A stretch of DNA of 64,000 nucleotides from Bremia lactucae (lineage: Eukaryota; Oomycota; Peronosporomycetes; Peronosporales; Peronosporaceae): contig NC_090616.1 in the NCBI RefSeq assembly GCF_004359215.1, positions 1,628,788-1,692,787 of the forward strand. The letters are read 5' to 3'. This document shows, piece after piece, positions 10,098 to 59,843 of the stretch. Position 1 is the first letter of the stretch, and each line of letters starts with the position of its first letter. Position numbers and translations under genes: made by a program. The notes beneath the pieces are model-generated. The model was not told where the DNA came from and did not search any database. It was given only the letters and a program-made list of their open reading frames with translations.

Positions 10098-10478
10098 ATG
10101 GCCGATATTCGGTCGGCAGTAGTATTTCCTGAGAAACAACGGGTTCTCGGCAGCACATCGATGGAAGAAAGTGTCCTCGACGAGAAGACTCGGATTGAAC
10201 GTTTAACGTCCCAATCCTGGGAGTCATTGAAGACAAACTTTTTATATAAGGATACAGTCAAATCCATGGATGTCTTCCCTGAATTAGTACCGTGCGGGTT
10301 GCATAAGGATAAAGGCACTCGACACGAAATCGACCTAATCGCAAGTTCGAAATGCTGCATCAAGAAGCAATGGTCATTGCCTCGTAAACAACTATTGAAG
10401 ATCGACAATTTCTTTGCCGATCATGCCCCTAAGGAAGCATATATCCTTAAACTCTTACGAGATGCGTCAAAGGATTAA
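10098..10478 (+). pseudogene. element A reverse transcriptase, N-terminal part
   Basis: Open for 126 codons. Landmarks are KDTVKSMDVFPELVP, DKGTRHEIDLI and CIKKQWSLPRKQLLKID, the conserved start of gypsy RT (FP..LP..RG..H.I.L, then the WPLPREQ region). The palm motif and all later domains are missing, because the element ends at the junction with B. Confidence 0.75.
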
Positions 10479-10646
10479 GACCTCCGATCCTTTTTCGCGG
10501 GAATGTATTCCTCTGATGGGCCTTCTGTCGAGGATGATGGGTCTCGTCGTACTGTCGGACGAAACCCGGAACGTCCAACATCAGTTAGGAACGAAGTTTA
10601 TAGCTATCATGCGAGGGTGGATACCATCGCCAACGAACGAGATAAC

Positions 10647-11252
10647 TCACTCGAACCCCCTTACCTCACGGTGGTTCGAGAGGCATTCAACAAGAAAACG
10701 CCTTTCACCACTCGAATCCGTCAATGGATGTAGAGGGGAGGGGTTTCTGGTTCGCCGAACCCGAGTTAACATCGTTTCTGGTATCAGACTCTCCATTTTT
10801 CTTACGAAAGAATATTGATCACGTGCTATCCCGTCGTCGCGAGATAGCGATGACGGTTGATAATATTTCTCGTGACCAATTGAGAGATTGTGCGCAGGTT
10901 GCGATTGATCAACTTGCGAGCGAAAGGACACAAGAGTCTCTTCAGAATGAGCTGGTGACAGCTCGTCAGAGGATCCCTTCCTTGGAGGAAAGAGTATATT
11001 GTCTGGCTCATAAAAATGCGACTCTGTTCCGAAATCATAAGGCCCTGGCAGTTGCCCTAGACCAATCCAGTGAAATTTGGAATGGGAAGAAGCCTTGTTT
11101 TGATGGAACGGGCGGAGACGCCCAATATAAAACGTTAGATGCGTACGTATTCTACGAGGCAGCTCGATCGTGTACGCATTGCCTTGGCGATCTAGTACAC
11201 GAAACAGGGCGATATACCTGGGCATTGATCTATTACTGCCTACATTTGTCAC
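10647..11252 (-). pseudogene. element B integrase C-terminal domain, linker and chromodomain start
   Basis: A 201-codon open frame on the element's sense strand: RYIALFRVLDRQGNAYTIEL, then TFYIGRLRPF (end of the gypsy integrase C-terminal domain), a linker of about 130 residues, then ERRFLVECLSNHREVRG, the first strand of a chromodomain, which is cut off. The same DNA is also open on the + strand (10,724-11,284). Confidence 0.75.
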
Positions 11253-20118: not shown

Positions 20119-21530
20119 ATGGCGACGAATAAGTCTGTGCGCATAGCCCGTGAGGCCGCAAAGCTGGCGGCTGCACGGACTGATGGTAATGTAAATGTTT
20201 CAGTAAACGCTAATGCGTCCACTGTGGGGAATACGTCACCTTCTACTCCCATTGGAGGAGGCTGGAAAATGTCATCTGTTGATTACATTGCAGGTGACGG
20301 TGACAAGTAACCTGCTACACAAGCTGTAGGTGACTGGTCCAAGTTACCGCCATCGCCCGACTCAGTGGCCTTTTTAAAGGCCGCCGGATCACCCGGCGCC
20401 GAGTCCATTAAGCCTTTATATTTTTACGAGACAACTAAAGAGATGATGACGAGGTTGTTCGACTCGTCGGACTAATAATGACTTCATGGGTGACGATCAC
20501 TCTCGTGGCGTTAGTATGCATCACCAGGAGCTATGTGACTGTGCAGGGAAGAATGCTGCTGGTGCTGCTGCTTTGCATCGCCACGAAAAGAGTGCTTTTT
20601 AGGACCGCTCCTAGAGCCATGTTGGCGTTATTGCTAACATGAGTCAACAGGAGAGACCCGCAAAACGTTGCGGCTCGATCCAGGGAAGAAGCCTTGGTTG
20701 CCCTCTAAGGGAAAGCTCGTTGGTTTGCTAAAACCAACAATATCATCATATTCCGCTGTCCGACTCGTCCATGAAAAAGGCGTCGATGATACTCTTTGTA
20801 AGCGGGCAAAGAATGTCAAACCTTTGCTCCAAGCTTGGACAGCATATGTCCAGAATGTGCAAAGCATAGACCGAGGGCCTGGCTTGGCAAACTGGAGATT
20901 TTCAGTGAGCGATTTGAGAAACGAAACATAGTCAGTGCACGCTACAAGCTGCATTGTTTGTCCAGAGAGGCAGCGATACCTTGCCAGTCTTTGAAAGGTC
21001 ATGTGTTTTTATTCGTGCTGCTATAAGAGCGAAGGTCATGCCCCGAGAGAAGCATACTCTCTTAAAAATCATCAATGAAGGACGCCCATCTCTTGTGAGA
21101 TGCGCGTAGGGATCGAAACCGCCAATCCTTTTACAAGCGCAAGTAGCATTCGTTCTCTTATTGACCCTCCGTCGAGGAGAATAAGTCTCGTCGTACTATA
21201 ACTCGCGGCGTCGGTCGATAATGCGTCTCGTGACCAGTTGAGAAATTGTGCGTAAGTTGCGACTGAACATTTGACGAACAAAAGGACAGATCGGTCCCTT
21301 CAAAACGATCTTGAAACAGCTCGTCAGAGGATCCTTTTTTGGTAGAAAAGTGTGAAACGTATGGCTCATGAGAATCAGATTATGTTCCGAGACCATAAGG
21401 CTCTGGCGGTTGCCCTAGATCGTTCCAGTGTAATTTGGAATCGGAAGAAGCCTTTTTTTATGTAACGGGCGGAGACGCCCAATATAAAACGTAGGAAATG
21501 CGTCAGCTCGATCGTGTACGCATTGCCTTG
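20119..21530 (+). pseudogene. antisense extra ORF of gypsy elements, copy F (broken)
   Basis: Starts at ATG 20,119, about 135 bp inside the 3' LTR, antisense to element F. The first 63 codons (MATNKSVRIAREAAKLAAAR...) are followed by stops. The conserved middle region reads GKKPWLP, then LLQAWTAYVQNVQ, and in another frame FSERFEKR...YKLHCLSREAAIPC. This pairs with KKPWLLP, LMQAWSAFIRNVK and FEKR...YKLHRLSREAGLPC in copy D. The C-terminal part near 21,240-21,500 matches copy B (HKALAVALD, VTGGDAQYKT) with stops. Most differences between F and D in the middle region are synonymous or conservative in this + frame, which argues that the antisense frame was once the selected one. Confidence 0.55.
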
Positions 21531-42585: not shown

Positions 42586-42953
42586 ATATTGGGTGTATCG
42601 TTACATGAAATTAACACTCAAAAGGTTGTTGGAAAATAATACTTTAAATAGTAATATTCGGAAAGCTTATCCATTGCTCCGCGGTCCAGTCAGCCCTGGA
42701 CGCACCAAAGAGAGAGACAGATAAGACTTTTAGTACATGTTTTGTATTAGACCAAATTAAGTTAGTATTAAATAAATAAAAACAGAAGATATATAATTCA
42801 GTTTACTTCAACCCTCTTTAAAGCAATTATTTTAAAGAGAGTCTTCCCCTGCACGCACTAGTGTACGTAAAGTGACGCGAGGCACCACTCGCACAGAAGC
42901 AATTCGAAGTGGACTTGTACTAAAGCAGTGCAAGTCGGTGGTGCCCCGTTACA
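42586..42953 (+). repeat. 5' LTR of gypsy element C
   Basis: Matches the right-hand LTR of element D in reverse complement from gggtgtatcgttacatg (42,590) to CCCCGTTACA (42,953). The canonical TGTAACG start is altered. It contains the hairpin around 42,913-42,937. Confidence 0.8.
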
Positions 42954-42955
42954 CC

Positions 42956-42971
42956 TGGTAGCACTTCGTAG
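42956..42971 (+). other. primer-binding site of element C
   Basis: TGGTAGCACTTCGTAG begins two bases after the LTR end. The same junction (CCCCGTTACA-CC-TGGTAGCAC) is seen intact at 51,310-51,330 and decayed at 8677, 15,530, 33,413 and 59,265. It should pair with a tRNA 3' end of the form GUGCUACCA, which I cannot assign. Confidence 0.65.
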
Positions 42972-43042
42972 TCCGTCCAAGGACCACAGTTCTATCATCT
43001 AACATGTAGAAGTTAGATGCTAATGGAAATACGCATCACGTT

Positions 43043-44030
43043 TTGCGTGATAGCTGCTCCTCTCTAAGTGACATAGAAAGCAGTGCGGTCGAAAGAATGA
43101 GTTCGACCGAAGGGAATGATGCCATCTTGGCCACGCTGTCCGGTTTGGATAGAGATTCCCCCCATTCAGCCTTCGCCAAGTTCATACAGCATGAACTTGG
43201 CGAGTCGAAGAAGAAAGTAGCCTTGCTTCATCAGCAAAACTGTCAGCAGGTAGGATTGTTGAAGTTACAGCAGGTACAGACCCCTGTACCTGGGATGACG
43301 CACACGCGTCGTCCGGAACCCTCAAAGATAGACATCTCTAGGGGAGTCGAAGAAGACTCCCTCTTAAGATGATTTTTCGAGTTGGACGATGCCATAAGGG
43401 CACGTCACATCGTCGACGAGCAAATGCAAGTCGCATTCGCTCAATCAAATTTGGCAGGTCGTGCCAAAACTTGAGCTCTAGGCCTTAAGTTGCGCGAGTC
43501 GCATGTCTTTGGGTTGCTAGAGGCTTCTAAAGCCCGGCTCAAACAGACGTTTGAACCGCCTAGGGCTGAGTTCAGAGCTCGATCAGAGCTTATGAAACTC
43601 AAGCAAGGCAAGCGTGATGTTCACGCAGCATATACGACTCTTAGCGAATTATATTACAAATAACCCAGTCCATGAACACACGCTAATTACGGTGTTCATG
43701 CAAGGTCCTACGGATGGTCCCGTAAAGACCCACCTGTCTGCTTGGAACTGGATACGCTTGAAAAAGCAATATCCGTTGCGGAACAGGAGGACTTTAGCTT
43801 AAAACAGGCTTATGCTAGTTCGTCATCGTATCGTCATCCAAGACGACACGAGTTAGATTCAGAACCCATGGACCTCTCTTACGTCGAAAGCGAGGTCTCT
43901 CGCTTTTCGAGCAATAAGCAATTGCAGAAATGCCATCGCTGCCGAAAATTAGGACACTACGCTCATGAGTGTAGTGCCCCACGCCCAGTACCGAAAGTAC
44001 TGAACATAATTATGGACCGAATGCCAAAAG
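43043..44030 (+). pseudogene. element C gag
   Basis: The N-terminal frame (43,043-43,372) has SAFAKFIQHELGESKKKVALLHQQ and RRPEPSKIDIS, then frameshifts. Mid-gag reads ARLKQTFEPPRAEFRARSEL and KQGKRDVHA. From 43,742 the frame is open through LEKAISVAEQEDFSLKQA to an exact CCHC knuckle, CHRCRKLGHYAHEC. Nucleocapsid function is implied for the family; this copy cannot make a full Gag. Confidence 0.8.
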
Positions 44031-44242
44031 GGGCAACAGTCGCGGGTCCGACGTTGTTGCGAAATCGCAACAGCGAGGCGGACAGCCAAAAAACGGTCGG
44101 AGTTAGTAAGGGCGCAAAGACCTACAGATCCAGCAACCTCAAGAGAGTTTGCAAATCTCTTAACGAAAGTTGCTCTAGCCACACAACAATTATGTGTCTC
44201 TGCACCTGGTGATAAGGTATCCCTCATACCTTAAAATTAATT

Positions 44243-44644
44243 GGGACAAATAGTTTTTCAGTTAGAGCCCTAGTGTACTGTGGAGCGTCGAATTACTTTA
44301 TTCGTCGCCAGTCTCTAGAGGGTCGTAGGCTCAAATATGTTGAGCGCGACATCCCTTTAACGAGGATGTCGGTGCGTCTAGCGACAGGCGCATCGATAAC
44401 AGTAACGAAAGGCGTAGTGAAATTTCACTACACATTAAAAGATTTACGGTATGATGATGATTATATCGTACCTGATTTGGATGACAAAGTTGATGTCATC
44501 CTCGGTTTACCGTTGCTCAGTTTGTATGAGCCAAGAATTAGCTGGCAGCATCGATCCATAAAGATGCCTGCCACTTGGTGCATCATATGGTCATCTGATG
44601 AAAGTCTTGGAGCGTCCACAGGCGTGTGGATGGACTACGAGTGA
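44243..44644 (+). pseudogene. element C protease with catalytic Asp lost
   Basis: The frame is open but the active-site Asp codon is TAC (44,276-44,278), giving YCGASNYFIRRQ where D has DCGASNYFIRRQ. Later landmarks LATGASITVTKG and KVDVILGLPLL are intact. Retropepsins need this Asp, so the enzyme is dead. Confidence 0.8.
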
Positions 44645-45299
44645 GTGCTACGGCCTTACTTGTGGCACGTTCCTTAGTACGACGGGACAAGATCAAAGTG
44701 TGATTACTAATCACACTGTTGAGCCAGCTGCCGGCGGCTGTGCGAATGCACAGGCAGCGCCGAAGGACCACCACTAGAATAAGTCGAGTGGATTGAAAAA
44801 TGAATGTACGCCTAGCACGTGACATTCAAGGAAGATACCGGTTATCCAAAAGGGACAACACGATAATACTAGGTCAAGTAGAGAGTCGACCGTAGAGGAC
44901 GCGGCTGTGCTAGCGCTTTCACAGTCGGAAGGCTTTGAGGGAATAAGTCTTAACGTACTTGAGGAGATATCTCCTCAAAAAGTTACTGCTGAAGTGACCA
45001 GACTTCAGCATCCCGAGGAAATACTTCCTCGGCAGCCTGTGGATAAATCCCAAGAAGAAACCGAGACATTGAATGTCTTGGTTAATGACGGATCAAGAGT
45101 AGGCGCTTATACGCTTGATCTGTATGCGCCTCCGAAGTTAACTTCGGAGATAACTCAATTACCAACCCTAGAACCTAAGCGGTTCTTGAGAGATCTGCAT
45201 TGTGGGAAAGTCAAGCAGATCTGCGTACTCGTCACAGAGGACGATTACGTAACCGACATTCGGTAAGCGGTAATTTTTGCAGAGAACGAACGGGTTCTC

Positions 45300-46160
45300 A
45301 GCAGCTCATCGATGGACGAAAGTGTCCTCGATGTGAAGACTCGGATTGAGAGATATTCTACTTAATCCATGGAGTCACTTAAGACAAATCCTTGATATAA
45401 GGATTTGATTGAATTCAGGGATGTATTCCCTGAAACAGCTATTCACATAGCTCTCCGACCTTCTGTGTGCGAAAGGCCACAGGAGGGTGGCGGATAGTGC
45501 ACGCGTTCAATAAACTGAATGCTGCAACGGTACCATCTCAAACGTCGATACCTAGAAAAGACGCAATCATATATGGTATGCCTAAGAGTACCATCTATTC
45601 GTCTATGTATCTGATGGATCTATTTTATAAGATCCTTATGCGCGAATGGGACATCCCGTACACAGCAGTGAGCACTGCCTCTGGGATGCTCTGAGAATGG
45701 CTAGTAATGCCACAGGGGCTTTGTAACGCCCCTGCAATCTTCAACAGAAGCGTAACGAATTTGGTAAGACCCGTGCAAGAATTCGCACCGAGTTATTTTG
45801 ACGATGTGATCGACCATAGCCGGACCATGGACGGAAAGACGGACGTGGAAGTTCATAAACCTCACGTTCGTCAGGTTCATACAAGCAAAAGTTGTACGCA
45901 AATCTCACGAAGTGTATATTCGCTGCAAGTGAAATACCAATTATTGTATGCATCGTCGGTAAACACGGCGTGTACCCTGATTCTGAAAAGATAAAGGCAA
46001 TTACCGACTAGCCAGTTCCAGTCGATGTCATACAACTTAAAAAGTTTCTTGGGCTAGCGGCGTACTTGCACCAAAATACTCCCGCAATTATGCCGAGATG
46101 ACAGTTCATCTCTATCGTCTCTTGAAAATAGACGAGAAATGGCTATGGAATGCTGAGGGT
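45300..46160 (+). pseudogene. element C reverse transcriptase
   Basis: KATGGWRIVHAFNKLN, PRKDAIIYGMPKSTIYSSMYLMDLFYKI and IPYTAVSTASGML, then TGA (where TGG is expected), then EWLVMPQGLCNAPAIFN and SYFDDVIDH (YFDD intact). About 60 codons between FPE and the FCVRKATGG motif are deleted. The thumb follows in other frames (KKFLGLAAYLHQ-like). Confidence 0.8.
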
Positions 46161-46199
46161 CAGCGTTCCTTTGCGGTATTAAGCAAAGCTTGATGCAAT

Positions 46200-46640
46200 C
46201 GCCCATCTTGTCGATTACAGATCAAGAGAGACCGTTCAATGTGGTCTGTGACGCCAGCGATTTCGCAATCGGCTGTGCGTTAATGCAATGCGGTACATAC
46301 GGCGCGTAGCGCGTCGTCTGTTTTTCAATCGCGTCAGCTGCAAACAGCTGAACGCAATTACCCAGTGCATGACAAGGAACTCCTTGCCATGAAATATGCA
46401 CTGGCTAAGTTTAGGGTCTATCTCCTCGGAGATAGACTGTTCACCGTATATGCGGACAATGCGTCATTACACACGGCCGTAAATAGCCTACACCTCTCGC
46501 AGAGTATGGCGAGGTGGCTATCCTTTTTCGCGGATTATATTTTTTCGTGGAATATAAACCAGGACGAATTAATGTCGTCGCGGATGCGTTATCATGCTGA
46601 CCCGATTTCGAGCCGGCTGCGCATTCTAAAAGTGGAGATA
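46200..46640 (+). pseudogene. element C RNase H
   Basis: NVVCDASDFAIGCALMQ-type start, VHDKELLAMKYALAKFRVYLLGDR, FTVYADNASLHTAVN, MARWLSFFADYIFSWNINQDEL. Stops lie between the first and second motifs. Confidence 0.7.
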
Positions 46641-46683
46641 ATTCACTATTGCAACATTAATTACAGGCGTTCCGTCATCAACC

Positions 46684-48078
46684 TTGTTTGATAACATTAA
46701 GAAAGCCTACGCAGAAGATAACGATCTTCTGCGTTTAATAAATCATCAGATGAATCCATCCGATAAATCTTTCAAAATTTACGGCTTTATATCGATCGAC
46801 ATCCCATCATTACACAACACGCATGGCTTATTGTATTACACAGCCGTTGCCGGCAACACTTATGCGTCGTCGTCCCAACTCACAATGATTTGCGCTTGCA
46901 CATCATGTATGAGTGTCACGATGCACCAACAAGTGGGCATCGTGGATGTGAGAAGACTTCTCTCACAATAAGTCGCGACTTTTACTGGCCCCGCCAGTAT
47001 CAGTTCGTGCGCAAGTACATTCGTGCTTGCGAGGTATGTCAACGGGTGAAGCCTAGCCCTTCGTTCCGCGCACCTCTCCAACCTCAATTACTTCCGGCAG
47101 AGTGTTGGCAGTTCGTATCTATGGACTTCGGCTTCATTTTTCCGAAGACGATCACAAAAACAATGGAATTCTTGTTTTTGTAGACAGATCTAGAAAGATG
47201 GTACATCTCGCTGCAGTGCCAGAGTCAATTACGGCTCCGGGCTGTGCCCGTGTCTTTATCGAGACTGTTTTCAGACTCCACGTATACCCCGTAAACTGGT
47301 TCTCGAACGAGATCAACGATTCATGATGGAGATTTGGCAATTTATGTTCCGATCTCTCGGAACATAGCTGACTATGTCATCTTCTGATCATCCAGATACA
47401 GATGGTCCACCAGAACGCGTAAATCGCGTCCTTGAAGAGATACCTCGAAGTCCGTCCAATCGTATCCGAACTGGAGCGAGCTTTTACGGTTGGTCGAATT
47501 CGCCATCATCAATTCGGTGCATGCGTTGTAGACGCATGCACCGTTCTTTGTGAATTGTTTACGCCATCCACGCATACCCACACAAATAGAGAGATGCTCT
47601 TGTTTAAGGGGGGACTCGCACAAGCAAATTCAACTCTGGCTCATGCTAATCACGCGTCGAAGTCACCAACGACGCGAATGATTTCGATGTCGATTACTTT
47701 GATCTCATGGCGGTGCGCACAAAGCGCACTGAAAAAAAAGACAAAACAAATGCGTCCGTAGAGGAATTTTTGCTGGCTCGAGAATCAGTGGTCCGTTTCG
47801 TACAGGATTACAATGCTAACGCAGTGGACCGACATTAACGGAACGCAGACAAGCATGGAAGAGCAAATGTTCTTTTATTCAAAAATATTGAGCTCGTACC
47901 ACTCTCTACGGTAAACTTACCTTAGCGTGCAGTCCCTAATGTGGGCAGCAGTAAACTACTACCCAAGTTCATTGGGCCATTTCTTGTTCTGCATCGCAGA
48001 GGCAATTCATCCACAATAGAATTGCCAAGTAGGAAGCAAACGTATCCTACATTTTACGTTGGTCGGCTCCGCCCGTAG
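46684..48078 (+). pseudogene. element C integrase
   Basis: HHCC region: RLHIMYECHDAPTSGHRG ... RKYIRACEVCQRVKPS. Core start SMDFGFIFPK, then a frameshift to NGILVFVDRSRKMVHLAAVPE. The end of the core is badly damaged (47,300-47,760). The C-terminal domain ends TFYVGRLRP followed by TAG at 48,076-48,078, a stop shared with D. Confidence 0.75.
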
Positions 48079-49015
48079 CATCTGTACGCGGTTTCTCCCG
48101 AAGATGGATCTGACCACCCTTTTTAAGAATCGCTAAAATATTCTTGTGGTCACAAAGCAGATTCTCATGCTGAATTTGGAGATTCTCATGTCGGGTCCAA
48201 AGATCCTCAAAACCGCGATGAGCTGACGACAGCTCATCACGAAGAGCGTGATATTTCTTTCATACTCCATCATTGAGGATGCGCTCTTCGAACGGTCTGC
48301 CAACCGTTCGATATAGTGAGCCTGCACCGTCTGCTCCAACGAGTGACGCTTACCGCACTCGTGATCAAGTCTCTTCTCCAATACATGAAGGAAGTAATCG
48401 AGTTTGTCAACCTTCGACTCAAGATCCGACACACAGGTCGGATCTATTTTTCCTCCTCCGCCATGACCATAGGTGTATACCCACGGTGGTCTCAACGTTT
48501 CCTTGTGGAACGTAATTTAAACCAACGCGATGTGAAGGGGCAGTGAACGCGATATCTTGCTCACGCGCGCGTTTATCCACCTTCCGATGACAGCTGGGAA
48601 CCTTGTTCCCAGCTGGTTGTTGGCGGTGAGGGCCTCGTCCGTGATTATGACGAGACCCATCCGATGGATCAGAAGGCCATTAAAAATACGCGCCTCTGGC
48701 GCCTGTAAATCGATTGCAAAACGTCAATTGCATCGCGCATCTCGAAAGAGATGTGAGCCCTTCCCTAAGGCGAAGAAAGGGAATGAATATCTCCTTTCAC
48801 CCGTTTCGTGTTGTCGACACAACATGGAGAAGGATCACTTCACGTGAAGCATAGAAGTCTTGCCTCACGAGACAACGGATGCAATATAAATCTTGCACCT
48901 GTTGAAGTTCGTTTCTCAAACTTGACGCGAATCGCGTTAAGTTTTGAAGCCAGGCTTCGCGTGTTATGTCTTTGACATTGCGAAAAACGCGTTCCAGGCT
49001 TGCATCAACGAGCTT
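48079..49015 (-). pseudogene. antisense extra ORF of gypsy elements, copy C (frameshifted)
   Basis: The - strand carries SDLESKVDKLDYFLHVLEKRLDHE and HSLEQTVQAHYIERLADRS (48,133-48,495), close to copy D. Further left on this protein, MQAWNAF...RNVKD (about 48,990), RVKFEKRTSTGARF and HPLSREARLLC are shared but split by one-base deletions. Relative to D it has an extra block containing the palindrome GAAGCCTGGCTTC. Confidence 0.5.
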
Positions 49016-49334
49016 TTATCTTGCTTGTTGCCACGAGGCAAGGGCCACTTCTTCTTGACACATTATTACGACCCTAGTATCAGGTCGATTTTACGACGAG
49101 TGCCTTTATTCTACGACAAATCGCACGGTTTGGATTCAGGGAATCCATCCTTGAATTCGATCAAATCGCTTTAGAAAGGATTCGTCTTCAAAGTCTCCCA
49201 GAATTGGAACGTAAAACGTTCAATCCGAGTCTTCTCATCGAGGATACTTTCGTCCTTCGATGAGCTGCTGTTTATTCTCAGGAAATTCTATCGCTGACCT
49301 AATATCGGCCACATACTTGTCATCTGTGACAAGT

Positions 49335-49395
49335 ACGCAGATCTGCTTGACTTTGCTACTACGCAGATCTGCTTGACTTTGCTACTACGCAGATC
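49335..49395. repeat. 26-bp tandem repeat in the element E linker
   Basis: ACGCAGATCTGCTTGACTTT... is present twice in tandem, followed by a partial third copy (ACGCAGATC). The unit itself contains a GCAGATCTGC palindrome. Confidence 0.8.
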
Positions 49396-51235
49396 ACGCA
49401 AGAATTGTTTCATTTCTAGCGTTGGCAAATACGTTATATGAAGTTAATTTCGGAGGCTCTATTCGATCAAGTGTTCACGCGCCTACACTTGATCCGTTGC
49501 TTACTAAGACATTGAGTGTTTCCGTTTCCTCTTTGAAGCTTATTCTTAAAGGTACCGGGGAACTTCGACCACAGGTTTCTGAGGTCTTATTCCCGCAGTT
49601 TTCTGGGGACTTCTACCTTCAAGTATTATTTGGGAAGCATCCTTCCTAACTGCCTTCAGCTGTCGTTGCGCTACCACAGGAGATCCTTTACAATCGACTC
49701 TCCAGTCGATCTGGTCTTTTGTTTTGTCTCCTAAAGACAGGCATTTTAAGCTTTCTTGGATGTCGCTTTTCAAGCTAGCAACCTTGTTTCGTACCACACA
49801 TCTCATTCGAGCGGTCGAACTTTGACGCCTCTGCTTGTGCGCAGCCGTCAGGATCAAACTCTGCAGTGTGATAAGTATTCTCACTGAGCTCTTGTGCAGT
49901 CATGCAAACGGTCGGACCACAAGTGAGGTCATCGCACTCACTTGAAGGACATCCACACGCTTGTGGACGCTCCAATACGTTCATCAGTTGGCCATCTGAT
50001 GAACAAGAGACTGGCATCGACACGTCTTGATGCTGCTAGTTTATGCATGGCGGCTCGTACTCTCTGAGACATGGTAATCCAAAGATGAAATCAAAATTGT
50101 CATCCAAATCTTGCACGATAATATCATCATCGTACTGTTTACCCTTAATGTGTATTGGATATCAACTACACGTTTCTCAACTGTTATAGATGCGCTGTTG
50201 CTAGGCACACTGGCATTCTCGCGAAAGCGATATCGAACATAATAAATTTGAGTCTGGGGTCTTCCAGCGATTGGCGTCGAATAAAGTTATTCGACGCCCC
50301 GCAATCGAATAGGGACTTTAGTTGCACTTTATTTGATACTTCTATTTTCAGGGTGATGAGTTTAATCTCATCACCTGGGGCAATTACACACAGTGTGAGG
50401 AGAAACTTTCGTCAAAAGACCTGCAAATTCTTTTGACGTTGCTGCATCAGTAGGGCGCTCTGAACTCACCGACCCCGACCGTTTTTGACGATCCGCCTCG
50501 CTGTTGCGATTTCGCAACAGCGAGGTCACTCCACTCATAGGCGTAGTGGCCAATTTTTTGGCAAAGGTTACATTTCTATAACCGTTTGTAACTTGAAGAG
50601 CGAGGTCTCTCGCTTACATACGAGAGGCCCATTGTTTCTGGACCTCTGTTTTTTTTGTCGTCTCGGAGGACGATAAGCTCCAGAGTGAACTAAAGCCTGT
50701 CTAAGACTGAAGTCCTCCTGTTCCGCTATAGAGATCGCTTGGTCGAGCGGCTCTAGTTCAAGCCCGAAAAGGTGAGGCTTAATAGGGCCGTCTGCAAGAC
50801 CTTTAATAGACACAGTTACCGGTGTTCGTTCAATAATTGGATGACTAACGATACAATTGACCAGGCATCGTGTGCTGAGCATAAGGCGTGAAGGTCACGC
50901 TTGCCCTGCTTCAAATCCAGGAGCTCGGTCAAGCCCTGAATTCGGCACGTGGTGGCTCAAATATTTGCCTGAGCCGGGCCTTGAAGACCTCATACGACCA
51001 AGAAACTAATGGGTTGTGAAGCTTGAGCAAATGCCAAATTTTTCTTATGCCGCGTCATCATTGATGGGGGAGCTCCAATGGCGTCGTCTAATTCGACAAA
51101 CCATCTTAAAAGGGAGTCGCCTTCGACTGCCTTAAACTTAGAGGTTTCTATCTGTAAGCTTTTGGGTCGACGCGGAAACGTCGGCTTATAACCAGCATTT
51201 ACATGCTGCTGTCTCAGCATTTTTAATTATAAAGC

Positions 51236-51690
51236 AAGTTTCGAGACACCTAATGTTCACTGTTATTAGTGTCAGGTCAACATGTATTACCAGTACTAGT
51301 GAAAGGTGCCCCGTTACACCTGGTAGCACGTAGTCCATTCAGCAACCTACGCACTTCCATCGAACATGAACATGTTGGATGAAGAAGGAGGGAGCTTCCC
51401 ACCCCCTTAAGAAGGTCATCACGCCACACGTGAAGAGTTTACTCATCTGAGTGACCTTGATTGGAGAGCGATCGAACGAATGAGTTCGGTCGTAGGCGCG
51501 CCAGCTGTTGGCGCTATGCTGTACAATCTGGGAGGAGAAGAACAGCATGCGGCCATAGCCGAGTTCATACAACACGAACTTAATGCGGCCCGAGATGAAG
51601 TAGCCTTGCTTCACCAGCAAGGCTCTCAACACGCAGAAGTTGAGATAACAGGTTCACGACACAAGGGTACAGAGAAGGCTCCAAAGTAGC
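51236..51690 (+). pseudogene. inverted LTR end, PBS and gag N-terminus of element E
   Basis: LTR end CCCCGTTACA, CC, then TGGTAGCAC (PBS), then gag start MNMLDEEGGSFPPP and RMSSVVGAPAVGAMLYN (from 51,480), AAIAEFIQHELNAARDEVAL and LLHQQGSQHAEVE. The preceding and following parts of the same element are on the - strand. Confidence 0.7.
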
Positions 51691-52045
51691 TTAGGGGCTT
51701 TAGCTACCAGAGGTAATTTGAAGAATTACAAATTAAGGAAAGAAAATTTGTATTGACATATTTAGTTTATCTACCACTGATTTTATTATATTAATATCTA
51801 TCTAAGTACAGCGCCTTCTTGCGTCCCGCACAATTGTCTTATAACGATTGGCGGGGTTAATTTAGACTTAAATCAACCAATCAACAGATCTTATATCTTA
51901 TTGCATTAATAATTTCTAATTTGGAAATATTGAAACTATTTAAATCAAAATTAATAAAGATAATAACTTTGTACTTCTTTATTATTTCCTCTCATAGGTA
52001 ATAATATTTATTATTCCTCTTATAGGAAATAATACCTATGTAACG

Positions 52046-52646
52046 GACACATTTTACACTTATAGTGTAGGCGGGTATGTCTAAATGCGGCCACGATCTA
52101 CCTAGACACACACACTCCCAAGCATAGCGAGGAAGCGGTTTGACCGTCTTCTCTTGCGTGCAGTGAGGTAGTTGTAGTTGGCGCCTTAGTGACCTCACTT
52201 GATACCCTAAATACTCTAGTAAAGTGTCATCACGAAAGCGGAAATCTGGCTCCTCGTGCGAACTTACTAAGTAGACAGTAGTTTTTCGACTGATTTATAT
52301 TTAATCGCTTAAATATAATGCCTATTTTACCAATCAAAAATGTCGTCTCTGTAGATAGCACTAATATGTATTGCAAGCGTGGTCACAAATGTGAACCACT
52401 CCCGAGTGGTGGGTCTTATTACGCAGTCCCCGTTAAGTCCACTTTGTGTACGTAAGTAGATGGTCAATTACTTCACTTGACCATCTCCTTAAGTACACCA
52501 AGTGGACTTAACGGGGACTGCGTAACAATAGGGCAACTTTAGCTCGTTACAGATAGACTCAATAAGTTTCTTAGTTCTATATAACTAAAAGAGACTCAGG
52601 GATTCGTAGAGCGAAAAGGCAACTAGCGCTCGAGAGTATGTCCCTA
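52046..52646. repeat. LTR-like unit with nested long hairpin
   Basis: Matches 1-615 in the same orientation. It contains an inverted repeat with arms of about 30 bp at 52,421-52,450 and 52,493-52,522 (acgcagtccccgttaagtcc...), and nested within it GATGGTCAA / TTGACCATC. No coding potential. Confidence 0.7.
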
Positions 52647-52855
52647 TGTAACGGGGCACTGCCGACTTGTACTGCTTCAGTACAAGTCCACTTCGCACTG
52701 CCTCAGTGCGAGTGGTGTCTCACGTCACTTCACGAAAACTAGTACGTGCAGAGGAAGTCTTCTCATTAAAACACTTGCTTTAAAGAGGGTTAATTAAAAA
52801 CTGTATTATTATAATTAAGTTCTTCTTGTCTATCTACTTTATACGTGGTGTTACA
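52647..52855 (-). repeat. 3' LTR of element D (shortened)
   Basis: On the + strand TGTAACGGGGCACTGCC at 52,647 to GGTGTTACA at 52,855. Colinear with the inner half of the 5' LTR at 59,272-59,460, then truncated. Carries perfect hairpins at 52,664-52,688 and 52,694-52,710. Confidence 0.75.
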
Positions 52856-52863
52856 CAACGTGA

Positions 52864-54404
52864 ATGCGCCCCTGTTTGGAGGTCGACTACGAATGCGAGT
52901 CGGACGAAATGTCCGACTCGGGGAGAACGGAACATTCGCCTGATCATCGTCAGGCGGCTGACTATAAGCCTTCAAATGAGGGGGGGCTCATTCGAGTAGA
53001 CGTGGGGGCTCATTCGAGTAGACGTGCTGGTAGCATTTGCTACAGCATGTTCGGTTCCGACGGCACAGGGGACGGTGCTGGCGATGAGGAATCATCCTCA
53101 TCGCCAGTACCGTCTCCTGTGCTGTCACCCGCAAATATTTCTGTGCGTGGCGATGACGATGGAGTAAGCCATCGTAATAGAGGTTCTTGAGGTACCCCTG
53201 ATTGAGTGGGTACCACTCAAGGTATCGTAGACACGAAAATGTCTCGTCTTGCCCTGGAGAAGAAGCCGTGGCTTTTGCCCGAGCATCTAATTAATAGCTT
53301 GTCTGGAGAGGCTACTCCCCACAATAAATATCCATTATCTATTGCGACAAAGCTACATGGCATTGATCCCAACGCGAAGAACTTTCGCGCTGAGGAAGAT
53401 TTTATTCGATGCTTTTTTTCAAGCATCGATGGTATAGTGGCAACAATAAGCGAGATAAAGTCTCGCTTATGCAAGCCTGGAGCGCATTCATTCGCAATGT
53501 CAAAGACTTAACGCGATTTCGCGTTAAGTTTGAGAAACGAACTCCAACCGGTGCAAATTATAAATTGCATCGGTTGTCACGTGAGGCAGGACTTCCATGC
53601 CTCACGTGGGGTGATTCCTGTTCGTGTTGTGTTGACAACACGAATCGAGTAAAAGGGATGTCTATTTCCTTATTTTGTCCTGGGGGAGGACTCACATCTG
53701 TATCGAGATGCGCGATGCGATTGACGTTTTGCATACCGACTTACATGCACCAGGGCCGCGTGCTTTTCGTTGGATCTTCTGAACCATCGGATGGGTCTCG
53801 TCATACTGACGGACGAGGCCCTCACAAACAACAATTAGCTGAGAATGAGGCTCCCAGCTGTCACGTGAAGGTGGATAACCGCGCCAGCGAACAATATAAT
53901 TCGTTCGCTCCCCCTTCACATCACGGTGGTTTCGGATACGTTCCAGAAGGAAACGTTGTCCATTGTGGGAATCCACCAATGGTTGTGGCGGAGGAGGAAA
54001 AATTAGATCCGACCCAAGTGTCGGATCTAGAGTCGAAGATCGCTAAACTCGATCGCTTCCTCCATAATTTGGAGGAAGGACTTGATTACGGGTGCAATAC
54101 GCGTCGCTCGTTAGAGCAGACGGTGCAGGCTCATCTTATCAGACGGTTGGAAGACCGTTCGAATAGTGCGTACTCCATGTTGGAGTACGGTCGAAATTAT
54201 CACGCTCTTCGTGATGAGCTATCGTCAGCTCTTCGCGGTTTCGAGGATCTTTGGACCCGACATGAGAATCTCCAAATTCAGCATGAGAATCTGCTTTGTG
54301 ACCACAAGAATATTTTAGCGATTCTTAAAAAGGGTGGTCAGATCCATCTTCGGGAGAAACCGCGTACAGATGCTACGGGCGGAGCCGACCAACGTAAAAT
54401 GTAG
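52864..54404 (+). CDS. antisense extra ORF of gypsy element D (near-intact)
   Basis: Starts at ATG 52,864, 8 nt inside the 3' LTR boundary, and runs opposite to pol up to the end of integrase. One frame covers 52,864 to about 53,470 with two TGA codons (53,188 and 53,203); the next, 53,409-54,404, is open for 331 codons. Layout: an acidic Ser/Gly/Asp-rich N-terminus; a conserved block KKPWLLPEHLI ... FRAEEDFIRCFFSSIDGIVA ... LMQAWSAFIRNVK ... FEKR ... YKLHRLSREAGLPC followed by a Cys cluster (DSCSCC); a variable part lying over the chromodomain; then a coiled-coil-like C-terminus (VSDLESKIAKLDRFLHNLEE to DATGGADQRKM). Homologous pieces occur in B, C and F. No known family is recognised. One frameshift and two stops mean this copy is probably inactive as a whole. 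Confidence 0.55.
53692..53979 (-). pseudogene. element D chromodomain
   Basis: A classical chromodomain: FLLERIRNHRDVKG, TNYIVRWRGYPPSRDSWEP (the aromatic W..Y/W...WEP cage pattern), then SQLIVVCEGLVRQYDETHP. In chromoviruses this domain at the end of Pol guides integration to marked chromatin. Here it is cut off from integrase by stops. Confidence 0.85.
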
Positions 54405-55400
54405 GATACGTTTGCTTCCTACTTGGCAATTCTATTGTGGATGAATTGCCTCTGCGACGCAATTCACGGAATGGCCCAATGAATTTGGGTAGTAGTTTAC
54501 TGCTACTCACATTAGTGACTACACGGTTAGGTAAGCTTATAGTAGAGAGTAGTACTAGGTCATTCACTTTAAATGAAAAAACGAATGCTCTTCCATGTTT
54601 GTCTGCGTTCCGTTAATGACGGTCAACTGCGTTAGCAATAGAATCCTGTACGAAACGGATTACTGATTCTCGAGTCAGCGGAAATTCCTCTACGGACTCA
54701 TTTGTTGTGTCTTTTTCAGTGCGCTTTGTGCGCGCTGCCATGACATCTTTCTCATCTTCGATTTCTTCAACGTCGACATCACTCGCGTCGTTGTTAACTT
54801 CGACGCGTGATGAGCATGATTGACGCGTTCCGTCTGACCATCTGTCTCTGGATGATCAAAGTTGACACAATTAGTCGTGTTCCGAGAGATCGGAACATAA
54901 ATTGCCAAATCTCCATCATGAATCTTGGATTTCTATCCGAGACCAGTTCACGGGGTAACCCATGGAGTTTGAATACCGTGTCGATAGAGACACGGGCACA
55001 ACCGGAGCCGTGATTGACTCAAGGTGTACCATCTTGCTAGATCTGTCTACAAAAACAAGGATTCCATTGTTTTTGTGATCATGTTTGGGAAATATGAAGC
55101 CGAAGTCCATTGATACGGACTGTCAACACTCTGCCGGAAGTGGTTGAGGTTGAAGAGGTGCACGGAATGAGAGGCTAGGCTTCACCCGTTGACATACCTC
55201 GCAAGCACGAATGTACTTGCGCACGAACTGATACTGGCGGGGCCAGTAAAAGTCGCGACTTATTGTGAGAGAAGTCTTCTCACATCCACGATGCCCACTT
55301 GTTGGTGCATCGTGACACTCATACATGATGTGCAAGCGCAAATCATTGTGAGTTGGGACGACGACGCATAAGTGTCGCCGGCAACGGCTGTGTAATACAA
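54373..55400 (-). pseudogene. element D integrase
   Basis: The HHCC region is intact (MYECHDAPTSGHRG, RACEVCQRVKPS; 55,123-55,341). Core: MDFGFIFPKHDHKNNGILVFVDRSSKM (54,916-55,110), then DHPETDGQTERVNHAHH with the catalytic Glu (54,690-54,908). C-terminal domain: SSSKLLPKFIGPFRELRRRGN and TFYVGRLRP, then TAG. Frameshifts separate the pieces. Confidence 0.8.
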
Positions 55401-55541
55401 TAAGCCATGCGTGTTGTGTATCGATCGGATGACGATCGATATAAAGCCGATAAATCTTTAGAAGATTTGTCGGATGGATCTATCAGATGATTTATGAAAC
55501 GCAGAAGGTCGTAATCTTCTGCGTAGGCCTTCTTTATGTCA

Positions 55542-55868
55542 TCAATAAAGGTTGATGACGGAAAGCCTGTAATTAATGTTGCAATAGTGAATTATCTCCA
55601 CTTTTAGAATGCGCAGCCGGCTCGAAATCGGGTCAGCATGATAACGCATCCGCGACGACATTAATTCGTCCTGGTTTATATTCCACGAAAAAATATAATC
55701 CGCGAAAAAGGATAGCCACCTCGCCATACTCTGCGAGAGGTGTAGGCTATTTACGGCCGTGTGTAATGACGCATTGTCCGTATATACGGTGAACAGTCTA
55801 TCTCCGAGGAGATAGACCCTAAACTTAGCCAGTGCATATTTCATGGCAAGGAGTTCCTTGTCATGCAC
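55542..55868 (-). pseudogene. element D RNase H
   Basis: MHDKELLAMKYALAKFRVYLLGDR, FTVYTDNASLHTAVN, MARWLSFFADYIFSW. The segment with the first Asp (CDASDFAxGC) lies to the right in another frame. Confidence 0.75.
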
Positions 55869-56099
55869 TGGGTAATTGCGTTCAGCTGTTTGCAGCTGAC
55901 GCGATTGAAAACAGACGACGCGCTACGCGCCGTATGTACCGCATTGCATTAACGCACAGCCGACTGCGAAATCGCTGGCGTCACAGACCACATGGAACGG
56001 TCTCTCTTGATCTGTAATCGACAAGACGGGCGATTGCATCAAGCTTTGCTTAATACCGCAAAGGAACGCTGACCCTCAGCATTCCATAGCCATTTCTCG

Positions 56100-56860
56100 T
56101 CTATTTTCAAGAGACGATAGAGATGAACTGTCATCTCGGCATAATTGCGGGAGTATTTTGGTGCAAGTACGCCGCTAGCCCAAGAAACTTTTAAAGTTGT
56201 ATGACATCGACTGGAACTGGCAAGTCGGTAATTGCCTTTATCTTTACAGAATCAGGGTACACGCCGTGTTTACCGACGATGCATACAATAATTGGTATTT
56301 CACTTGCAGCGAATATACACTTCGTGAGATTTGCGTACAACTTTTGCTTGTATGAACCTGACGAACGTGAGGTTTATGAACTTCCACGTCCGTCTTTCCG
56401 TCCATGGTCCAGCTATGGTCGATCACATCGTCAAAATAACTCGGTGCGAATTCTTGCACGGGTCTTACCAAATTCGTTACGCTTCTGTTGAAGATTGCAG
56501 GGGCGTTACAAAGCCCCTGTGGCATTACTAGCCATTCTCAGAGCATCCCAGTGGCAGTGCTCACTGCTGTGTACGGGATGTCCCATTCGCGCATAAGGAT
56601 CTTATAAAATAGATCCATCAGATACATAGACGAATAGATGGTACTCTTAGGCATACCATATATGATTGCGTCTTTTCTAGGTATCGACGTTTGAGATGGT
56701 ACCGTTGCAGCATTCAGTTTATTGAACGCGTGCACTATCCGCCACCCTCCTGTGGCCTTTCGCGCACAGAAGGTCGGAGAGCTATGTGAATAGCTGTTTC
56801 AGGGAATACATCCCTGAATTCAATCAAATCCTTATATCAAGGATTTGTCTTAAGTGACTC
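56100..56860 (-). pseudogene. element D reverse transcriptase
   Basis: HAFNKLNAATVPSQTSIPRKDAI-type start (56,538-56,735), the TGA shared with C, MPQGLCNAPAIFN and SYFDDVIDHS (56,244-56,525). The same N-terminal deletion as C (near 56,790). Confidence 0.8.
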
Positions 56861-57581
56861 CATGGATTAAGTAGAATATCTCTCAATCCGAGTCTTCACA
56901 TCGAGGACACTTTCGTCCATCGATGAGCTGCTGAGAATTCGTTCGTTTTCTGCAAAAATTACCGCTGACCGTATATCGGTTACGTCCTCTGTGACGAGTA
57001 CTCAGATCTGCTTGATTCTACCACTATGCAGATCTGTCAAAAACCGTTTAGGTTCTAGGGTTGGTAATTGAGTTATCTCCGAAGTTGACTTCGGAGGCGC
57101 ATACGGATTAAGCGTATAAGCGCCTACTCTTGATCCGTCATTAACCAAGACATTCAATGTCTCGGTTTCTTCTTGGGATTTATCCACAGGCTGCCGAGGA
57201 ATTATTTCCTCGGGATGCTGAAGTCTGGTCACTTCAGCAGTAACTTTTTGAGGAGATATCTCCTCAAGTACGTAAAGACTTATTCCCTCAAAGCCTTCCG
57301 ACTGTGAAAGCGCTAGCACAGCCGCGTCCTCTACGGTCGACTCTCTACTTGACCTAGGATCATCGTGTTGTCCCTTTTGGATAACCGGTATCTTCCTTGA
57401 ATGTCACGTGCTAGGCGTACATTCATTTTTCAATCCACTCGACTTATTCTAGTGGTGGTCCTTCGGCGCTGCCTGTGCATTCGCACAGCCGCCCGCAGCT
57501 GACTCAACAGTGTGATTAGTAATCACACTTTGATCTTGTCCCGTCGTACTAAGGAACGTGCCACAAGTGAGGCCGTAGCAC

Positions 57582-57990
57582 TCACTCGTAGTCCATCCAC
57601 ACGCCTGTGGACGCTCCAAGACTTTCATCAGATGACCATATGATGCACCAAGTGGCAGGCATCTTTATGGATCGATGCTGCCAGCTAATTCTTGGCTCAT
57701 ACAAACTGAGCAACAGTAAACCGAGGATGACATCAACTTTGTCATCCAAATCAGGTACGATATAATCATCATCATACCGTAAATCTTTTAATGTGTAGTG
57801 AAATTTCACTACGCCTTTCGTTACTGTTATCGATGCGCCTGTCGCTAGACGCACCGACATCCTCGTTAAAGGGATGTCGCGCTCAACATATTTGAGCCTA
57901 CGACCCTCTAGCGACTGGCGACGAATAAAGTAATTCGACGCTCCACAGTCCACTAGGGCTCTAACTAAAAAACTATTTGTCCCAATTAAT
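57582..57990 (-). pseudogene. element D protease (active-site Asp kept)
   Basis: DCGASNYFIRRQSLEGRRLK with GAC at 57,948-57,950, RMSVRLATGASITVTKG, KVDVILGLLLL. The DCG triplet is characteristic of this family. Upstream linkage to gag is frameshifted. Confidence 0.75.
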
Positions 57991-57999
57991 TTTAAGGTA

Positions 58000-59200
58000 T
58001 GAGGGATACCTCATCACCAGGTGCAGAGACACATAATTGTTGTGTGGCTAGAGCAACTTTCGTTAAGAGATTTGCAAACTCTCTTGAGGTTGCTGGATCT
58101 GTAGGTCTTTGCGCCCTTACTAACTCCGACCGTTTTTTGGCTGTCCGCCTCGCTGTTGCGATTTCGCAACAACGTCGGACCCGCGACTGTTGCCCCTTTT
58201 GGCATTCGGTTATAATTATGTTCAGTACTTTCGGTACTGGGCGTGGGGCACTACACTCATGAGCGTAGTGTCCTAATTTTTGGCAGCGATGGCATTTCTG
58301 CAATTGCTTATTGCTCGAAAAGCGAGAGACCTCGCTTTCGACGTAAGAGAGGTCCATGGGTTCTGAATCTAACTCGTGTCGTCTTGGATGACGATACGAT
58401 GACGAACTAGCTTAAGCCTGTTTTAAGCTAAAGTCCTCCTGTTCCGCAACGGATATTGCTTTTTCAAGCGAATCCAGTTCCAAGCGGAACAGGTGGGTTT
58501 TTACGGGACCATCCGTAGGACCTTGCATGAACACCGTTATTAACGTGTGTTCATGGACTGGGTTATTTGTAATACAACTCGCTAAGAGTCGTATGTGCTG
58601 CGTGAACATCACGCTTGCCTTGCTTGAGTTTCATAAGCTCTGATCGAGCTCTGAACTCAGCCCTAGGCGGTTCAAACGTCTGTTTGAGCCGGGCTTTAGA
58701 AGCCTCTAGCGACCCAAAGACATGTGAATCGCGCAACTTAAGGCCTAGAGCTCATGTTTTGGCACGACCTGCCAAATTTGATTGAGCGAATGCGACTTGC
58801 ATTTGCTCGTCGACGATGTGACGAGCCCGCATGGCATCGTCCATCTCGACAAATCATCTTAAATGGGATTCTTCTTTGATTCCCCTAGAGATGTCAATCT
58901 TTAAGGTTTCCGGACGACGCGTGTGCGTCATCCCAGTTACAGGGGTCTGTACCTGCTGTAACCTCAACAGTTTTGCCTCTTGAGAGCCTTGCTGATTAAG
59001 CAAGGCTACCTTCTCCTTCGCCTCGTCGAGTTCATGTTGTATAAACTTGGCGATGGCTGAATAAACGGCATTTTATGTGATAGCTACTCCTTTCTAAGTG
59101 GCTAGAGAGGAGTGCGGTCGAACGAAAGAGTTTGACCGTAGGGAACGATGCCATCTTGGTCATGCTGTCCGGTTTGGACAGAGATTTGATGCGTATTTTC
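58000..59200 (-). pseudogene. element D gag
   Basis: Zinc knuckle CHRCQKLGHYAHEC with MDLSYVESEVSRFSSNKQLQK before it (58,000-58,357), gag HTLITVFMQGPTDGPVKTHLFRLE and SLEKAISVAEQEDFSLKQA (58,412-58,612), the N-terminal region to about 59,200 broken by stops. Confidence 0.75.
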
Positions 59201-59271
59201 ATTATCATCTAACATGTCCATGTTAGATGATGGAGCTGTGGTATTTGGACGGACTCTAAAGTGCTTCCAGG

Positions 59272-59694
59272 TGTAACGGGTTACTGCCGACTTGTATGCT
59301 TCAGTACAAGTCCACTTCGCACTGCCTCAGCGCGAGTGGTGCCTCACGTCACTTCACGTACACTAGTACGTGCAGAGGAAGTCTACTCTTTAAAACACTT
59401 GCTTTAAGAGGGTTAATTAAAAACTGCATTAATATAATTAAGTTCTTCTTGTTTTTCTACTTAATACTAACTCATTTATAAACCAATACAAAACATGTAC
59501 TAAAAGTCTTATCTGTCTTTCTCTTTGCGCGCTGACTGGACCACGAAAGTAGATATAATGGTCTATATCAATGGATAAGCTTTTAGAATATTACCATGTA
59601 AAGTAATATTCTTCAGATATTCTCTACCTTTTAGATAATATATTAATAAACAACCTTTAAGTGTTAATTTCATGTAACGATACACCCCGTTACA
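59272..59694 (-). repeat. 5' LTR of element D
   Basis: 423 bp, TGTAACGGG at 59,272 and CCCCGTTACA at 59,694 on the + strand (TG...CA in both directions, with an inverted TGTAACGGGG). The reverse PBS (gtgcttccagg) lies at 59,261-59,271. Confidence 0.8.
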
Positions 59695-59843
59695 CCCCTC
59701 CTGTCTCTCACAGATCAATGCGCAAGCCTTAGGAACGCACTAGACGCTTGAAGATCAAAAGGGGAAGTGCACTTATTATTCAAATCTAAAACTTTTACCC
59801 TTGTAGAATACGTGACGCTCGCTATTTTGAAAAATACGAGTTG

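Follow-up and report, generated by a model that had tools for sequence, protein, structure and literature searches.

A probable antisense gene opposite the end of pol in chromodomain-bearing Ty3/gypsy elements of the downy mildew Bremia lactucae

Element D and its antisense reading frame

The window analysed here is a stretch of 64,000 nucleotides from Bremia lactucae (NC_090616.1, positions 1,628,788 to 1,692,787 of the forward strand). It contains a Ty3/gypsy retrotransposon, called element D in the following, which carries an antisense open reading frame (aORF) on the strand opposite pol. The codon numbering of the aORF follows the database homologue P0001 (559 aa). Element D reads on the − strand and consists of the following parts:

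52647..52855, − strand: remnant of the 3' long terminal repeat (LTR), with TGTAACGGGG at 52647 and GTGGTGTTACA ending at 52855; 52647-52844 matches 59272-59467 at 92%
52864..53190, + strand: first piece of the aORF, from about P0001 codon 55 (open frame; tblastn 52870-53418 = P0001 55-222, 64%)
53206..53418, + strand: second piece of the aORF, in the frame of the first and behind in-frame stops (open frame and tblastn)
53394..54404, + strand: main open piece of the aORF, codons 217-558 (tblastn 53400-54398 = P0001 217-558, 68%)
53692..54042, − strand: pol chromodomain, opposite the aORF (PF00385, E 2.4e-11)
54373..54612, − strand: C-terminal (SH3-like) stretch of the integrase with the end PTFYVGRLRP (the homologous stretch in the genomic copy L018 is PF24626, E 4.2e-09)
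59272..59694, − strand: 5' LTR (LTR match), with the terminus CCCCGTTACA at 59685-59694

A preliminary description of this DNA had proposed one long frame opposite pol at 52864-54404. What is open is a stretch of 336 codons at 53394-54404 (+ strand), which lies opposite pol, yields 331 aa from the ATG at 53409 and ranks second in length among the 12 open reading frames of at least 150 aa in the window. The remainder is in a different frame (52864-53190 and 53206-53511, up to which the frame of the second piece stays open) and is interrupted by stops at P0001 codons 146 and 151, which separate the first and second pieces, so that the proposed single frame resolves into two frames with stops. 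The main piece holds most of the helical core, the Cys cluster, the stretch antisense to the chromodomain, the coiled coil and the C-terminal basic patch of the product. As had been described, it crosses the chromodomain in antisense direction and ends behind the integrase GRLRP, its stop lying opposite PTFYVGRLRP.

P0001 codons 1-54 are missing from D. As just 14 nt separate the LTR edge from codon 55, the distance of 8 nt between the frame and the LTR is a deletion scar. The 3' LTR remnant is also shorter than the LTR of about 455 nt in the genomic copy L016. Element D is a decayed, dead copy of a chromodomain-bearing Ty3/gypsy family that carries an antisense gene.

Genomic copies and database homologues

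The genome to which the window belongs (115.9 Mb in 220 contigs, the window lying in contig C7) was searched in six frames with P0001, which returned at least 89 matches, a lower bound. Twenty-five copies were read, comprising the best-scoring 20 of the 89 (9.9 kb each, L009-L028) and five more divergent, shorter ones. In 20 out of 20 best-scoring copies the antisense frame sits between pol and the 3' LTR and also overlaps the end of pol, and in all 20 the chromodomain and the integrase tail are found opposite to it. LTR-like pairs of 259-475 nt flank 11 of the 20; as these pairs are 71-93% identical, the copies are not recent. N runs are present at several loci.

A clean LTR pair together with codon 1 is present in nine copies. 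The distance from the LTR edge inwards to the P0001 start is 131-149 nt in eight of them and 200 nt in L026; the start at 8 nt from the 3' LTR that had been described holds for D only. In L016 the 3' LTR edge is at position 1017, a tract that is purine-rich on the sense strand adjoins the 3' LTR, and a candidate start ATG at 1138 is located about 120 nt from the LTR, five codons ahead of the P0001 start. The true start of the aORF is likely to be the one five codons before that of P0001.

On the other strand, pieces of L016 and L018 match gag (PF03732), protease, reverse transcriptase, integrase H2C2, integrase SH3 and chromodomain families above the curated cut-offs, while a zinc knuckle and the integrase core are just under them. 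The gag of L016 corresponds to Retrotrans_gag (E 7.4e-10), and the chromodomain of L018 is matched by PF00385. The aORF is therefore not a gag gene, because L016 and L018 carry gag through chromodomain on the opposite strand. Element C, a broken copy in the window, contains one RT_RNaseH (PF17917) followed by the integrase H2C2, and a second RNase H was not found there. The Ty3/gypsy gene set seen thus comprises gag to chromodomain (L016/L018), RNase H (element C) and LTR pairs. In the complete layout the aORF has about 560 codons. Its start is located some 120-150 nt inwards of the 3' LTR edge. About 340 codons lie beyond pol, after which the frame runs antisense across chromodomain and pol linker and reaches its stop opposite the integrase GRLRP.

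With the 331-aa piece of D as query, 187 proteins with E<=1e-3 were obtained among 1249 candidates, and a profile of five members retrieved 211 proteins among 7989 scored candidates. Source names were taken from the best 120 of the 187 and the best 120 of the 211 matches; among these, the named sources are Peronospora matthiolae, P. effusa and Hyaloperonospora arabidopsidis, the rest being ENA contigs. Two P. matthiolae clusters at 90% identity contain 1335 and 524 sequences, i.e. 1,859 database sequences that are named merely "uncharacterized protein". The complete family members that were read have 493-593 aa. In their alignment the core is strongly conserved (SLxQAWxAFIxN...FEKRxPxGARYKLHRLSREAGLPCLSWGDPCPCC). 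The N-terminus is acidic and variable, and the helical C-terminal part carries a KKxRTD patch at the C-terminus. These sequences argue for an antisense protein that is conserved between downy-mildew genera. No account of an oomycete antisense gene was found among the literature matches listed.

We further asked of the protein sequences alone whether the chromodomain, represented by a 28-residue stretch of D, can be encoded opposite each homologue. In 14 out of 14 back-translated homologues the best match was in the predicted reverse frame and at the homologous place, with scores of 130-154, compared to a highest score per protein of 86-107 after shuffling (20 shuffles each). The 14 include three proteins from P. 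matthiolae, two from P. effusa and one from H. arabidopsidis, and not all of them are independent. The result indicates that the antisense layout is old.

Selection, the overlap with pol and further observations

Selection was analysed on a codon alignment of the genomic copies to P0001, made with tblastn, which did not include D, C, F and B of the window. A change present in at least three copies was regarded as shared and a change in one copy as private, while changes in exactly two copies entered neither class. A codon was dropped if it had gaps, N or broken neighbours, and a column if fewer than 15 copies covered it. The premise is that shared changes mostly date from the activity of the lineage and private ones mostly from the time after insertion.

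In the core (codons 166-340) the ratio of synonymous to non-synonymous changes in the aORF frame is 37:24 for shared and 92:299 for private changes (odds ratio (OR) 5.0, p 2.2e-8). The +1, +2, rev0 and rev1 frames show no such synonymous excess. The rev2 frame reaches OR 3.3 because it shares its wobble position with the aORF frame, and it contains 130 stops in 4329 codons compared to 24 in the aORF frame. The signal holds if the cut-off for shared changes is raised to 4, 5 or 6 (24:10, 18:2 and 15:0 vs 95:304), if transversions alone are counted (OR 7.8), and for the 20 copies L009-L028 alone. For pairs of copies, the ratio of non-synonymous to synonymous substitution rates (dN/dS), summed within divergence classes, lies at 0.37-0.58 for the core, at 0.51-0.72 for the N-terminal part and at 0.35-0.56 opposite the pol linker. 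Outside the pol overlap it therefore stays below the value near 1 that the preliminary description had named as evidence against a gene. These figures show purifying selection on the aORF during the active phase of the family.

In the overlap the constraint is divided between the two frames. In the stretch facing the chromodomain (codons 345-445) constraint is seen in the pol frame (OR 3.36, p 2e-4) and not on the aORF residues (OR 0.84, dN/dS 0.72-1.03). In the stretch facing the pol linker (codons 446-530) the situation is reversed, with constraint on the aORF frame (OR 2.8, p 0.003) and none on the pol residues (OR 0.28). The relative frame is such that the wobble position of pol is position 2 of the aORF and the wobble position of the aORF is position 2 of pol. 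If expectations are derived from the residues and the codon usage of pol, the overlap of the 25 copies should contain 182 stops in the aORF frame, and 29 are observed. Conversely, if they are derived from the aORF residues, the pol frame contains 26 stops compared to 74 expected in the chromodomain stretch and 14 compared to 35 in the linker stretch. The core lacks pol, and there 292 observed stops face 292.3 expected ones. Stop deficits occur in both directions, and both frames are therefore kept open in the overlap. A predicted disordered part of the aORF product (356-426) is located opposite the chromodomain, and a confidently predicted helix (429-536) is largely opposite the linker. The overlap is thus a double-coding stretch in which the tolerant part of each protein lies opposite the constrained part of the other: pol keeps its chromodomain, and the aORF keeps its coiled coil opposite the pol linker. 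This long overlap represents a clear and testable case of divided constraint.

These data bear on a rival explanation, namely that the aORF is a passive mirror of Pol, left open and conserved by chance because the chromodomain and integrase codons on the other strand are conserved. Where the chromodomain lies opposite, the aORF residues do follow pol, in line with this explanation. However, about 340 codons of the aORF extend beyond pol, and it is their core that is most strongly constrained in the aORF frame. The preliminary description had stated that the part nearest the 3' LTR lies beyond pol and so cannot merely mirror Pol. The sense-strand frames of this core contain 107-292 stops per 4329 codons, against the 24 of the aORF frame. 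Even within the overlap, the constraint opposite the linker is on the aORF rather than on pol, and most of the stops expected from the pol residues are missing. A passive mirror is rejected for the core by the aORF-frame constraint and the stop counts, and for the frame as a whole we regard it as extremely improbable.

Several results weigh against a selected gene. At least one in-frame stop is present in 23 of the 25 copies used. With the loosest cut-off for shared changes (two copies) the core signal falls to OR 1.78 (p 0.004), and for the 165 N-terminal codons the comparison of shared with private changes gives no significant constraint (OR 1.46, p 0.15). The missing constraint on the aORF residues opposite the chromodomain belongs here as well. 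Finally, the p-values serve as guides, as the copies share ancestry and 30 combinations of region and frame were tested. We nevertheless regard it as almost certain that the antisense gene is real. An accessory protein encoded in antisense before the 3' LTR, as had been proposed, is supported by homologues in other oomycetes, purifying selection beyond pol, the kept layout and the avoidance of stops in the overlap. To the combined statement that D is a dead copy, that the antisense gene is genuine and under purifying selection, and that its overlap with pol is double-coding, we assign a probability of roughly 0.8.

The elements are rich in hairpins, defined as a perfect stem of at least 8 with a loop of 3-20. 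Elements C and D (window 42600-59700) contain 4.85 hairpins per kb compared to 0.29 in local shuffles, the loci L009-L028 contain 19-56 per 9.9 kb locus compared to 0.2-3.8 in shuffled sequence, and a host HECT gene contains 0.89 per kb compared to 0.18. In five elements (L014, L016, L018, L020, L025) the density per kb is 8.0 in the aORF, 7.1 in the LTRs, 4.8 elsewhere inside and 1.7 outside, and 21 hairpin places of the aORF recur in at least 6 of the 25 copies. The hairpins could possibly arise from template-switch copying by the reverse transcriptase of the element, or represent a selected structure. Among L009-L033 a few hairpins, at aORF nt 74-94 and 618-640, exist in two forms that differ by paired changes of the stem or by a reverse-complemented inner part (for example loop GAA vs TTC), a pattern that intrastrand template switching would leave. 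Paired changes are rare overall, with 22 of 4566 stem cells and 441 one-sided ones, and 1558 of 97068 cells at random column pairs were changed on both sides. Paired stem changes are thus in no excess over random column pairs, which speaks against active pair-keeping. The codon pattern, which is confined to one frame and the frame that mirrors its wobble position, is not explained by the hairpins. Two lesions of the aORF of D, at 53406-53429 (frame change near codons 217-222) and 53506-53529 (about ten codons lost after NVKD), coincide with hairpins common to many other copies.

Three further elements of the window contain remnants of the gene, and two host-like genes are present:

48053..49029, − strand: decayed aORF of element C, codons about 246-558, in several frames (tblastn)
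20656..21174, + strand: decayed aORF of element F (tblastn, 28% to P0011 147-339, E 3.8e-10)
10353..11134, + strand: decayed aORF of element B (tblastn)
2968-6336: host-like open reading frame of a HECT-domain ubiquitin ligase (PF00632, E 2.8e-94)
41596-42402: host-like short-chain dehydrogenase (PF00106, E 6.8e-14)

The counterparts reported earlier in F, C and B are thus recovered as homologous remnants by tblastn in all three, but they are broken, divergent pieces and not open frames. The peptides by which D and F had been compared exist, namely LMQAWSAFIRNVK (D, 53466-53504) and LLQAWTAYVQNVQ (F, 20824-20862) as well as SREAGLPC (D, 53577-53600) and SREAAIPC (F, 20961-20984). In F, no + frame exceeds 97 codons within 20,119-21,530, and SREAAIPC and LLQAWTAYVQNVQ lie in different frames. 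Elements C and D are inverted neighbours (43164-59062). Their similarity is 96% for most of the interior and 82% across the aORF region, a drop suggestive of recombination near the 3' end between subfamilies of the element.

Possible function and relation to known systems

In the AlphaFold model, computed with 48 sequences, the N-terminus is disordered. It is followed by a helical domain (about 171-350), for which the block-mean predicted local distance difference test (pLDDT) is 74-93, and by a single long helix at 429-536 with a pLDDT of mostly 94-98; a shorter family member gave the same core when modelled. The predicted product thus begins with an acidic, disordered region and continues with a helical core that includes a Cys cluster, a long coiled coil and, at the C-terminus, a basic patch of the KKPRTD type. 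A nuclear oligomer appears most likely on account of this combination. The mechanism we propose follows from the anatomy and from the plant and retroviral parallels: an antisense promoter in or adjoining the 3' LTR would drive transcription of the aORF, the product would enter the nucleus and oligomerise by its coiled coil, and the oligomer could act on the DNA or chromatin of its own element, tuning or shielding its transcription.

A number of results count against assigning this function. The model of the whole protein is weak (mean pLDDT 64.5, predicted template modelling score 0.38), and there is no confident structural match in the PDB (Foldseek E<=0.001) or among viral models. No Pfam family accounts for the antisense protein, either in six homologues at E<=10, where the HMMER filters drop most weak matches, or among the 25 of 29 families shown for 48 members at E<=0.1. 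The assignment therefore rests on features and analogy, and the basic patch may be a nuclear signal as a reading of the sequence. In the same searches PF04195 (Transposase_28) and bZIP families were without match in the six homologues, and PF04195 was also absent from these 25 families. One homologue, P0012, bears the UniRef name of a tyrosine-recombinase core-binding domain and has no Pfam family at E<=10; no recombinase is among the Foldseek or VIA matches, but a recombinase relation may nevertheless exist. By analogy with known antisense genes we tentatively propose a nuclear regulator of the element, at somewhat less than even odds.

Other roles of the same gene have to be considered. Instead of regulating transcription, the product might serve as a structural or packaging helper, for instance as an additional capsid- or coat-like protein; this is unlikely, as the element has its own gag and a gene on the opposite strand needs a separate transcript, which would be unusual for a particle protein. 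Slightly less likely still is that the antisense transcript itself matters, for control or evasion of RNA interference, and the protein is secondary. Antisense transcription across the integrase would yield double-stranded RNA, and in Phytophthora infestans sense and antisense small RNAs were found along two abundant Gypsy elements (PMC3522703). The same account reports no obvious antisense bias of the small RNAs, and in the present family it is the amino-acid sequence of one frame that is under selection, while conservation of the protein extends across genera. That the aORF is a host gene captured in reverse and still serving the cell, not the element, appears improbable. No relative outside these elements was identified, so that an origin by capture is possible, but 20 out of 20 copies are at one place of one element type and 14 out of 14 homologues keep the overlap.

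Returning to the nuclear regulator, the most far-reaching statement is that of an undescribed antisense gene family across downy-mildew genera, probably in thousands of copies, which encodes a nuclear protein with a core without recognised fold and a coiled-coil oligomer controlling its own element. It would have arisen independently of the TRP28 and HBZ genes and be interleaved with pol as a double-coding gene, with disordered aORF opposite the chromodomain and the flexible linker opposite the coiled coil. Taken as a whole, we consider this a possible account that falls a little short of an even chance.

Among oomycete elements, Chronos is described as a Ty3/gypsy element whose pol ends in a chromodomain and which has dual RNase H (PMC5348765), and the main text of that paper does not contain the word "antisense". 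The chromodomain at the pol end is shared with the present family (D, L018). Chronos may differ in its dual RNase H, the second being of archaeal type; one RNase H was found in the broken element C. Downy-mildew genomes can be full of Ty3/gypsy elements; in Bremia lactucae they make up 53.3 of 91 Mb assembled (PMC6570648).

In plants, Ty3/gypsy elements of the Retand/Tat group carry antisense ORFs (TRP28, PF04195) before the 3' LTR, which in Retand are present in nearly all recently active clusters and were proposed to encode DNA-binding regulators; some of them match Mis12, Smc or mitotic checkpoint families, and the Grande product was reported to be nuclear (PMC11963269). The position of the antisense gene between pol and the 3' LTR is in agreement with that described for the plant elements (PMC11963269). 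The oomycete family differs in that it has no TRP28 match in the searches above and in that its gene overlaps the chromodomain and the integrase tail. Moreover, Retand/Tat elements have a non-chromovirus pol without chromodomain, whereas the oomycete element has PF00385 (D, L018). A further parallel is offered by HBZ of human T-cell leukemia virus type 1 (HTLV-1) and APH-2 of HTLV-2, whose genes lie near the 3' LTR, with transcripts that begin in this LTR and run in reverse, and whose products are bZIP proteins. They are described as antisense retroelement genes with nuclear, regulatory products (PMC11963269), and the layout of an antisense gene in a retroelement is common to them and the oomycete family. 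They differ as bZIP proteins of animal retroviruses, in contrast to the six oomycete homologues without a bZIP match. If the proposed reading is true, the oomycete gene would be a third, unrelated antisense case after those of plants and retroviruses, and LTR elements would repeatedly have gained a regulator on the reverse strand.
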